Of a stretch of DNA of 64,000 nt, positions 5,129 through 62,315 are shown piece after piece; position 1 is the first letter of the stretch, and each line of letters opens with the position of its first letter. The stretch is from positions 1 through 64,000 of the forward strand of contig CAIZEI010000006.1 of the NCBI GenBank assembly GCA_903931945.1, written 5' to 3'. The DNA comes from an uncultured Hyphomicrobiales bacterium. Lineage in GTDB: Bacteria > Pseudomonadota > Alphaproteobacteria > Rhizobiales > Beijerinckiaceae. Made by a program: the position numbers and the translations under genes. The notes under the pieces were generated by a model, which did not search any database, was not told the DNA's origin, and worked only from the letters and a program-made list of their open reading frames with translations.

Positions 5129-6208
5129 TTACTTTTGCGACGACGGCTTGATCTCGTTGATCGTGCCCTTCGCTGCAATGATGAGCTTGATCCTATCGAT
5201 AATTTTGCGCGGCGCCGAGACAATTTTTGTCGCAATCTCAGATGCCTGATCGGCATTCAGGGGATCAAGATCGACGCCAACCTTTTTGGCGTCCTCAATG
5301 AATGCGGAATCGCGGACCATGGCCTGGAAGCCCATACGCAAAACCTGCCGTGCGTCGGGGTTCATATCGGGCGGTCCGGCGAGGGGGCCGTCGAGTGACG
5401 CTGCGACGCTGACAAACTCATAGATCGCACGCTGCTCGTCGTTTTTTGCCAGTTCTGTTAGCAACGGAACATCGGGCAGATCGGTTTCCTTGCGCAGGCC
5501 GATCTGCACAATGGGAATAATTTTTTTGTCGCGCACCCAATCGGGATGTTCGGATTTCCAGGAGGCCCATTGATTGGAGCCGCGTCCTTCAAGCTCGCCC
5601 TGCTCGATGCCATGGTCGATGGCGACGCCGCTGCCATAGCCTGTCACAAGGCGGATTCTTGTGCCTGCCAGCGCGTTGAGCAGCACCGGATAGACCCATG
5701 TTGTGCCAACGACGCTGACCGCGCCCATGACAATGTCGCGATTCGTCGCCTCGGCGAGGGTTTTAACACCCGTTGTGTGCCAGACCGCGACGATATCAAC
5801 GCTTTGGCTAAGCGCGCCAATCCAGGTCAGTTCGGCCGATTTGAAGCGCACGCCGGGCGCCTCGATCGCCTCATAAAAGGGCATGGATTTATTGAAGGTA
5901 GCGAGCGTCGTGCCATCCTTCGGAGCGAGTTCCTGTATGTAATTGACCGCCTGCACGCCTGAGGCGCCGGGCATGTTGGCCACCACAATCGAGGGTTTGC
6001 CGGGCAGGAAGTCGCCCAGATGCCGGGACATCAGGCGCGCGTAATTGTCGTAGTAGCCGCCCGCCACCGAGCCTGCGAGGATACGAATGGATTTGTTGCG
6101 GAAGAGTTCCTGGGAATGCGCGCCGCCGCCGGGCGCGCATGCCGCCGTCAACGCGGCAATCGCCAGCGCGCGCAGGCGCCGATTGTTGTGTCGATCGAAG
6201 CTCCCCAT
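5129..6208 (-). CDS. TctC/Bug-type tripartite tricarboxylate transporter substrate-binding protein
   Basis: Signal peptide, IRILAGSVAGGYYDNYARLMSRHLGDFLPGKPSIVVANMPGASGVQAVNY. Start placed at internal Met 6208 of the longer ORF. Confidence 0.8.
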   Translation of the reverse strand: MGSFDRHNNRRLRALAIAALTAACAPGGGAHSQELFRNKSIRILAGSVAGGYYDNYARLMSRHLGDFLPGKPSIVVANMPGASGVQAVNYIQELAPKDGTTLATFNKSMPFYEAIEAPGVRFKSAELTWIGALSQSVDIVAVWHTTGVKTLAEATNRDIVMGAVSVVGTTWVYPVLLNALAGTRIRLVTGYGSGVAIDHGIEQGELEGRGSNQWASWKSEHPDWVRDKKIIPIVQIGLRKETDLPDVPLLTELAKNDEQRAIYEFVSVAASLDGPLAGPPDMNPDARQVLRMGFQAMVRDSAFIEDAKKVGVDLDPLNADQASEIATKIVSAPRKIIDRIKLIIAAKGTINEIKPSSQK

Positions 6209-50946: not shown

Positions 50947-51267
50947 TGGTGCGGGCGGCCGGAATCGAACCGGCACAGGCCTTTCGGCCCTACGGATTTT
51001 CTTACCACTACGGCTTTCGCCGCCCCGCCTGCGCGGGTTTGTGGTCTGGACTATCCCTTCGCCCTGGCCGATACGCCCGAAGGCGCAGGCTACAGGCGCT
51101 GCCCGTCTAGTCTCTACACCTTCCCGCCGCAGATCCGCGGCAGGCTTGGCTCGGGATTGCCACTCGCGAGGTTTCCCCGACTTTGAGCAGTTCTACTTCC
51201 CCGGTTTCCCGGGGAGCACTCAAATTGGTTTCAAGTCCGTTGCGTCTACCAGTTTCGCCACGCCCGC
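50947..51267 (-). tRNA. tRNA-Leu(UAA) with anticodon-loop intron; exons 51233-51267 and 50947-51000 (CCA encoded)
   Basis: Acceptor GCGGGCG/CGCCCGC (7/7), D-stem GCG/CGC, anticodon stem ACGGA/UCCGU closing spliced loop CUUAAAA (anticodon UAA), long variable arm AGGGCCGAAAGGCCT, T-arm GCCGG-TTCGATT-CCGGC, discriminator A plus CCA. Confidence 0.95.
51001..51232 (-). ncRNA. group I self-splicing intron (IC3-like) in tRNA-Leu(UAA), ~232 nt
   Basis: Inserted after U34; P1 exon ACUU with IGS GAGU giving the conserved U-G wobble; Q-like AATCCCGAGCCAAGCC (51143-51158), R-like GTAGAGACTAGACGGG (51102-51117), S-like AAGGGATAGTCCAGACC (51043-51059); P7 GACUA/UAGUC; terminal omega-G at 51001; P10 UUU with 3'-exon AAA. 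Confidence 0.93.
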
Positions 51268-61466: not shown

Positions 61467-62315
61467 ATGTGCAGCACATTTACAGGCGTCCTGGCTTTCG
61501 CAGGCGCGTTGGTTCTAGCCATTGGCTGCGCCCCCGCGACTGCGGACCCGGCGGGCGTAGGCGCGCCGCTGCTGGCGCACCGGGCCGTCTATGATCTTTC
61601 TCTGGGCCGCACGGACGAGAGCCATTCCGCGCCCGTCGCCGCGCGTGGGCGGATCGCCTATGAATTCACCGGCTCGCCCTGTGAGGGCTGGGTGACGAAT
61701 TTTCGCCAGCTCACGGAACTGGAGATGCCGGAGGCCGATCCGCGCGTTTCCGACATGCGGACATCGACCTTCGAGGAAGCCGATGGTTCGGCCTTCCAGT
61801 TCAAATCCGACACGCTGATCAATGGCAAAACGGTCGAGACCATCGACGGCGCCGCCCGTAAATCCGGCGAAACCGCGATTGCCGTCAATCTGACGCGACC
61901 TGCGACGAGCACAACCAGCATCGCCGCCCCCGCTGTTTTTCCGACAGCGCAGATCTTGCGCATCATGGCGGCGGCGCGCGCGGGCGACAAAACCGCGGAA
62001 ATCCCCATTTTCGATGGCTCGGATACCGGTCAAAAGGTTTTCGACACCATGACGATTATCGGCCATGCGAAAACGTCGGATTCAGCCGAACCTGTGGCCG
62101 CCCAGGCTGCAGCGCTTCAGGGCGTCTCGCGCTGGCCGGTTTCGGTGAGCTATTTCGACCACAACAAGCGCGATGGCGCGCCCAATTACATCCTGGCTTT
62201 CGATCTCTTCGAGAACGGCGTATCGAGCGCGCTGCGCATCGACTACGGTTCCTATGTGCTCGAAGGCGCGATGGTGAAATTTGAACCGTTGCCGCAAAAA
62301 CCCTGCGAGAAATAG
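61467..62315 (+). CDS. EipB-like (DUF1849) cell-envelope protein
   Basis: Signal peptide; LLAHRAVYDLSLGR, GRIAYEFTGSPCEGWVTNFRQLTELE, DGSAFQFKSDTLINGKTVETIDGAA, MVKFEPLPQKPCEK. Confidence 0.88.
   Translation: MCSTFTGVLAFAGALVLAIGCAPATADPAGVGAPLLAHRAVYDLSLGRTDESHSAPVAARGRIAYEFTGSPCEGWVTNFRQLTELEMPEADPRVSDMRTSTFEEADGSAFQFKSDTLINGKTVETIDGAARKSGETAIAVNLTRPATSTTSIAAPAVFPTAQILRIMAAARAGDKTAEIPIFDGSDTGQKVFDTMTIIGHAKTSDSAEPVAAQAAALQGVSRWPVSVSYFDHNKRDGAPNYILAFDLFENGVSSALRIDYGSYVLEGAMVKFEPLPQKPCEK

Follow-up and report, generated by a model that had tools for sequence, protein, structure and literature searches.

A tRNA-Leu(UAA) gene split by a predicted group I intron in an uncultured alphaproteobacterium, with relatives of the intron on plasmids and phages

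Introduction

Group I introns in bacterial tRNA genes are an established kind of element. In cyanobacteria, the intron of tRNA-Leu(UAA), represented here by Anabaena, lies between U34 and A35 of the anticodon, carries a U-G pair at the 5' splice site and ends with a G, and is nearly fixed. A tRNA-Leu(UAA) intron was reportedly also found by Vepritskiy et al. (2002) in a deep-subsurface gammaproteobacterium. The introns of tRNA-Arg(CCU) in Agrobacterium and Bartonella (BbgpI) are located after the anticodon, and BbgpI self-splices both in vivo and in vitro (PMC7717549). In Azoarcus, an IC3 intron interrupts tRNA-Ile(CAU).

Here we describe a tRNA-Leu(UAA) gene with a 232-nt insert in an uncultured Hyphomicrobiales bacterium of the family Beijerinckiaceae. 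Gene, insertion site, splice-site U-G and terminal G are all shared with the cyanobacterial intron. However, the insert is only about 66% identical to the Anabaena intron (73% to that of Azoarcus; both reference sequences may be inexact), is GC-rich, and has a patchy rather than a nearly fixed distribution. The Azoarcus intron appears to share the small IC3-type core, with highly similar P3-P8 strands, but resides in another tRNA. The tRNA-Arg(CCU) introns belong to the same clade by sequence (77–82% to examples from the same family, within a range of 77–84% for alphaproteobacterial Arg, Thr and Lys introns), but differ in the tRNA and in the site. The gammaproteobacterial case, likened by description, sets a precedent from another proteobacterial class, as the gene and the type of intron are the same.

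Results

Anatomy and detection of the split gene

The analysed DNA (the window) is a 64,000-nt stretch of contig C6 from this bacterium, and contains the split gene on its minus strand (Table 1). The joined exons form an 89-nt class II tRNA with anticodon UAA, a 7/7 acceptor stem, a long variable arm and an encoded CCA, which ARAGORN types as tRNA-Leu(taa). On the unspliced sequence with introns allowed, the same program reports tRNA-Leu(taa) and places a 232-nt intron at position 36. At default settings, ARAGORN reports no tRNA at 50947-51267, and an Rfam scan at the gathering threshold yields no match in the window (RF00028 cut-off 50 bits). Under permissive settings, RF00028 aligns with the insert over the full model (1-253 of 253) at 41.2 bits, and this is the sole RF00028 match in the whole genome. 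Pipelines miss the intron because this score falls below the curated cut-off of 50, which is an annotation limit and not a mechanistic feature. tRNAscan-SE, by its authors' statement, is not designed for group I introns (PMC8450103). Spurious ORFs span the gene, and the intron contains no homing endonuclease gene (spurious ORFs only, with no room for one).

These results agree closely with a preliminary description made from the sequence. The exon limits, acceptor stem, variable arm and CCA that it gave are exact, and the insert lies between U34 and A35 as it stated. Its assignment of the insert to group I is borne out by the RF00028 match and the 60-pair core described below, and the comparison with the Rfam intron model that it proposed gives a full-length match, though under the gathering cut-off. 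That annotation would overlook the gene and place spurious ORFs across it was likewise foreseen correctly.

Two further observations concern the same contig. ARAGORN reports a 90-nt tRNA-Gly(tcc) at 61715-61804 of the window, which is probably false because RF00005 is silent there and a good tRNA-Gly(TCC) is present on contig C136. A dispersed repeat of about 100 bp (C6 78452-78553) occurs in more than 20 other places of this genome and also in the congener G119 (L223:3527-3627).

Table 1 Features of the split tRNA-Leu(UAA) gene (window positions)
Feature	Position	Strand	Basis and remarks
tRNA-Leu(UAA) 5' exon	51233..51267	minus	35 nt, last base U34 of the anticodon; ARAGORN, spliced and unspliced
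Group I intron (predicted)	51001..51232	minus	232 nt; 3'-terminal G at 51001; RF00028 E=5.6e-9, pair counts over 12 helices
P1 internal guide GAGU	51218..51221	minus	pairs with exon ACUU (51233-51236); P1 paired in 43/43 homologues
P3 5' strand	51185..51190 (partner 51099-51104)	minus	paired in 100% of cells; 9 sequences with C-G in place of U-A
P4 enclosing short P5	51151..51180 (P4: 51175-51180 with 51151-51156)	minus	P4 invariant in 43/43
P6b hairpin	51123..51144	minus	double-sided changes in 6/8 pairs
P7 5' strand, guanosine-binding helix	51108..51112 (partner 51049-51053)	minus	5 pairs, invariant, always paired
P8 with extended loop	51060..51098	minus	double-sided changes in 2/5 pairs; last pair weak
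P9 region, closing helix and two hairpins, one with GAAA tetraloop	51004..51045	minus	double-sided changes in 8/14 pairs
tRNA-Leu(UAA) 3' exon	50947..51000	minus	54 nt, A35 through CCA; ARAGORN

Fold of the intron

Helices P1 to P9, including the P3/P7 pseudoknot, were written out for the window intron and the pairs were counted over 43 homologues. The fold comprises 60 canonical pairs, and 95.6% of the cells are paired across the homologues. Double-sided changes occur in 25 of the 60 pairs, as against 15.8 in shuffles and 8–13 when the partner strand is slid. In addition, single-sequence folding gives a z-score of -4.2, with none of 200 shuffles as stable. P3, P5 and P8 vary across the homologues yet stay paired, whereas P4 and P7, being invariant, are compatible with pairing but not proven by covariation.

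The U-G pair at the 5' splice site in P1 is invariant in all 43 homologues. The intron follows a U at position -1 and its last base is a G, directly before A35. In the homologues a G also precedes AAAAT, but the extraction pattern demanded that G. Homologues with exact exon junctions were found at more than 150 loci. The predicted structure has every group I feature tested, namely the P1 U-G, the terminal G and the P3-P8/P4-P6 core with its pseudoknot. By similarity to the Azoarcus and Anabaena reference sequences, the intron appears to be of the small tRNA type, IC3-like.

Sole copy and proposed function

The assembled genome spans 5.03 Mb in 203 contigs at 98.5% completeness and contains 49 RF00005 matches, all of which were typed except one 54-nt fragment at a contig end. 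Besides the split gene, the leucine tRNA set consists of CAA (two copies), GAG, CAG and UAG; a second UAA gene was not found among the typed tRNAs. A pattern for the intronless UAA gene has no match in this genome and one match in 23 of the 28 genomes checked. UUA is used at about 1.3 per 1000 codons, as counted in mechanical ORFs of the window's contig. Since UUA is used and the split gene is the sole copy, a working UAA tRNA is needed and would be supplied by this gene, unless another lies in the unassembled part.

The preliminary description had pointed to an intact intronless gene in relatives, with the window copy an unexpressed pseudogene, as evidence that would count against it. Such intronless genes do exist in relatives, but in its own genome the split gene stands alone. 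That it is a decayed, unexpressed copy whose job is done by another tRNA seems very improbable: a simple scan for promoters is empty on the strand of the gene, though promoter and terminator scanning is uninformative here, whereas the genome has no other UAA gene to take over the UUA codons in use, and all tRNA and intron core elements are intact. The split gene is almost certainly functional, with a predicted splicing activity. We put a probability of roughly 0.9 on the full reading, in which this is a functional tRNA-Leu(UAA) gene with a putatively self-splicing 232-nt group I intron after U34, of a proteobacterial clade.

In the primary transcript, the intron core would fold, and a guanosine bound at P7 would attack the 5' splice site marked by the U-G pair in P1. 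The freed 5' exon would then attack after the terminal G of the intron, and exon joining would restore the anticodon loop CUUAAAA. The spliced tRNA would read UUA (and UUG). With no second tRNA-Leu(UAA) found in the genome, splicing is presumably essential for decoding UUA.

Distribution of split tRNA-Leu(UAA) genes

By BLAST, at least 23 of 149 genomes from the window's family, the window's own included, have a split UAA gene. Across the class, a strict pattern matches in 13 of 387 genomes, a lower bound, and in none for the reversed control; a pattern for the intronless gene, with matches in 8 of 149 genomes, was judged too narrow and was not used. Among genomes of named species, at least 120 stretches match the split-gene pattern. 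The alphaproteobacterial genera among the matches listed include Caulobacter, Brevundimonas, Phenylobacterium, Sphingomonas, Sphingobium, Rhodovulum and Paracoccus, as well as Bradyrhizobium, Xanthobacter, Methylocystis and Chelatococcus. Outside the Alphaproteobacteria, the matches listed include Acidobacteriota, Binatota and some gammaproteobacteria, for example Tahibacter. Identical introns are shared between members of the window's family and Chelatococcus, Camelimonas, Enterovirga and a Methylocystaceae bin, which fits its probable identity with GTDB Beijerinckiaceae. Two bins, one proteobacterial (L092) and one acidobacterial (L153), each have a contig on which the split tRNA-Leu pattern matches twice in the space of a few kb.

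Introns of the same clade are also located in tRNA-Arg(CCU) and tRNA-Thr(UGU) of the window's family (L081-L083, L087-L089); by the author's reading, a tRNA-Lys(CUU) among these loci holds one as well. The Methylocystis-type genus g17 also has an intronless UAA gene (L086/L282), which possibly reflects precise intron loss or a naive ancestor. Judged by sequence similarity, the window intron is a member of a patchily distributed proteobacterial clade of small, IC3-like introns. A literature search of partial coverage found no UAA introns in alphaproteobacteria; from the pattern matches, leucine tRNA genes of this split form are common there but go unannotated.

Plasmids and phages as plausible carriers

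A conjugative Bradyrhizobium plasmid holds a full split tRNA-Leu(UAA) gene. Another complete and unannotated copy is located on pCTX-M3 (NC_004464.2, from 61823; L301:5001-5299), where its neighbours include aac(3)-IId and an ATPase gene. The pCTX-M3-type split gene is found in about 1280 plasmid records, mostly from Escherichia, Klebsiella, Salmonella and Acinetobacter. Near-identical genes stand beside aac(3)-IId in about 12% of the complete genomes of E. coli (635 of 5426). The intron of this type shares 95% identity with introns from Enterovirga and from a Bradyrhizobiaceae bin. Moreover, the gene together with 165 bp upstream aligns over 468 bp with L075 of the window's family at 91%, which suggests that this part of the resistance region came from an alphaproteobacterium.

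In viral contigs (IMG/VR, L230-L269), 40 stretches match the intron pattern, many of them in tRNA arrays, with up to three split tRNAs per contig (for example L245:112-384, 5359-5644 and 5850-6132). The introns in these phage arrays interrupt tRNA-Leu(UAA), Thr and Met and, by the author's reading, Gln and Lys, while other members of the clade interrupt a phage protein gene. The phage homologues score 61–73 bits against RF00028. Among individual phages, the cultured 490-kb Agrobacterium phage Atu_ph07 (MF403008) encodes a tRNA-Leu(UAA) interrupted by a 278-nt group I intron (L324:1428-1789), at a place where no tRNA is annotated; Gordonia phage Daredevil (L325) has a split tRNA-Lys(UUU) and a Microcoleus phage (L327) a split tRNA-Arg(CCU). 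The Anabaena intron has no match in the plasmids, and the cyanobacterial-type pattern none in the viral contigs. On these matches, phages and plasmids are plausible carriers of split tRNA-Leu(UAA) genes. A 2014 review stated that all phage introns then observed lay in protein-coding genes (PMC3984707), and the phage tRNA introns found here are at odds with that statement.

Origin of the split gene

The closest introns are those of genus g17 and of g43, with the best identity to L061 of g17 (85–89%, depending on the alignment). A careful tree joins the window intron with g17 (support 89/84), while a quick tree places a different row beside it, and the host and intron trees are poorly resolved. 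The window exons are identical to those of the Methylocystis-type split genes L064, L116 and L162. In each of the five congeners sampled, the UAA gene lacks an intron and its tRNA body is a different one. The distance from this gene to a phosphoribosyltransferase gene is 50, 143 and 113 bp in L224, L322 and L323, and about 1.5 and 2 kb in L223 and L222 (smpB was ruled out as this neighbour, since Pfam identifies a phosphoribosyltransferase). The counterpart of that phosphoribosyltransferase gene in the window's genome lies inside contig C66, with no leucine tRNA nearby. The LivHM and MetE-like genes flanking the split tRNA have homologues in congeners; the tRNA-bearing spacer has none. Bin contamination was rejected for contig C6, because ChvG on this contig is single-copy and closest to that of a congener (81%). 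The 3' end of the tRNA occurs just once in the window, and so there is no sign of an island integrated at tRNA-Leu(UAA).

Taken together, we consider that the gene probably arrived horizontally in its already split form and that the native intronless gene was lost, the direction of transfer being read from sequence comparison. Inheritance from a family ancestor with a split gene, followed by loss in the congeners, would accommodate the spread of split genes through the family, and the poor resolution of the trees leaves room for it, since the AU test (p=0.31) does not reject a topology that groups the window with g9, the intron-bearing host genus closest to it by ChvG. Such descent is nevertheless rather unlikely, given the differently built gene in every sampled congener, the site near phosphoribosyltransferase that is occupied in three congeners but empty here, the exact exon match to another genus, a spacer unmatched between matched flanking genes, and the plasmids that carry split genes.

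Alternatively, the intron alone might have entered an intronless tRNA-Leu(UAA) gene already present, through reverse splicing or through homing with the aid of an endonuclease. Introns of this clade have moved into new sites, as their presence in Arg, Thr and Lys tRNAs indicates, and the intronless allele of g17 is nearly identical in its exons. However, the split gene differs in tRNA body and in location from the gene resident in the congeners, and the intron lacks an endonuclease gene, making this route improbable. A recent transfer of the cyanobacterial or plastid trnL intron shares with our case the insertion site, but identity within the proteobacterial clade is 87–89% against 66% to Anabaena, and the latter falls outside that clade in the tree (one cyanobacterial reference); we therefore give this source hardly any credence. 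The phylogeny suggested in the preliminary description thus lends no support to a recent cyanobacterial source. Of the origins that it had left open, we favour horizontal transfer between proteobacteria and prefer it to plain vertical descent. A deep common ancestry with the cyanobacterial trnL intron may exist, as far as the single cyanobacterial sequence compared can tell.

Discussion

Sequence comparison indicates that the window intron is neither a lone oddity nor a recent cyanobacterial gift. Group I introns in tRNA genes are a known kind; the mobile distribution is what is unexpected. The interest lies less in the single gene than in the breadth and mobility of the intron family. The Rfam cut-off excludes the GC-rich window intron. 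A scan with one pattern reveals many unannotated split tRNA-Leu genes, some of them in the tRNA arrays of phages and others on resistance plasmids of clinical origin.

We see about even odds that the whole split gene is a mobile unit, which conjugative plasmids and large phages would move across orders and phyla, where it could displace the resident tRNA gene. If so, whole-gene mobility can leave UUA decoding dependent on a ribozyme. The distribution opens to test the spread of tRNA group I introns that lack endonucleases, which has been argued mostly from cyanobacteria. For the bacterium studied here, the splicing of one RNA would decide whether the cell reads UUA, yet standard annotation misses the gene.
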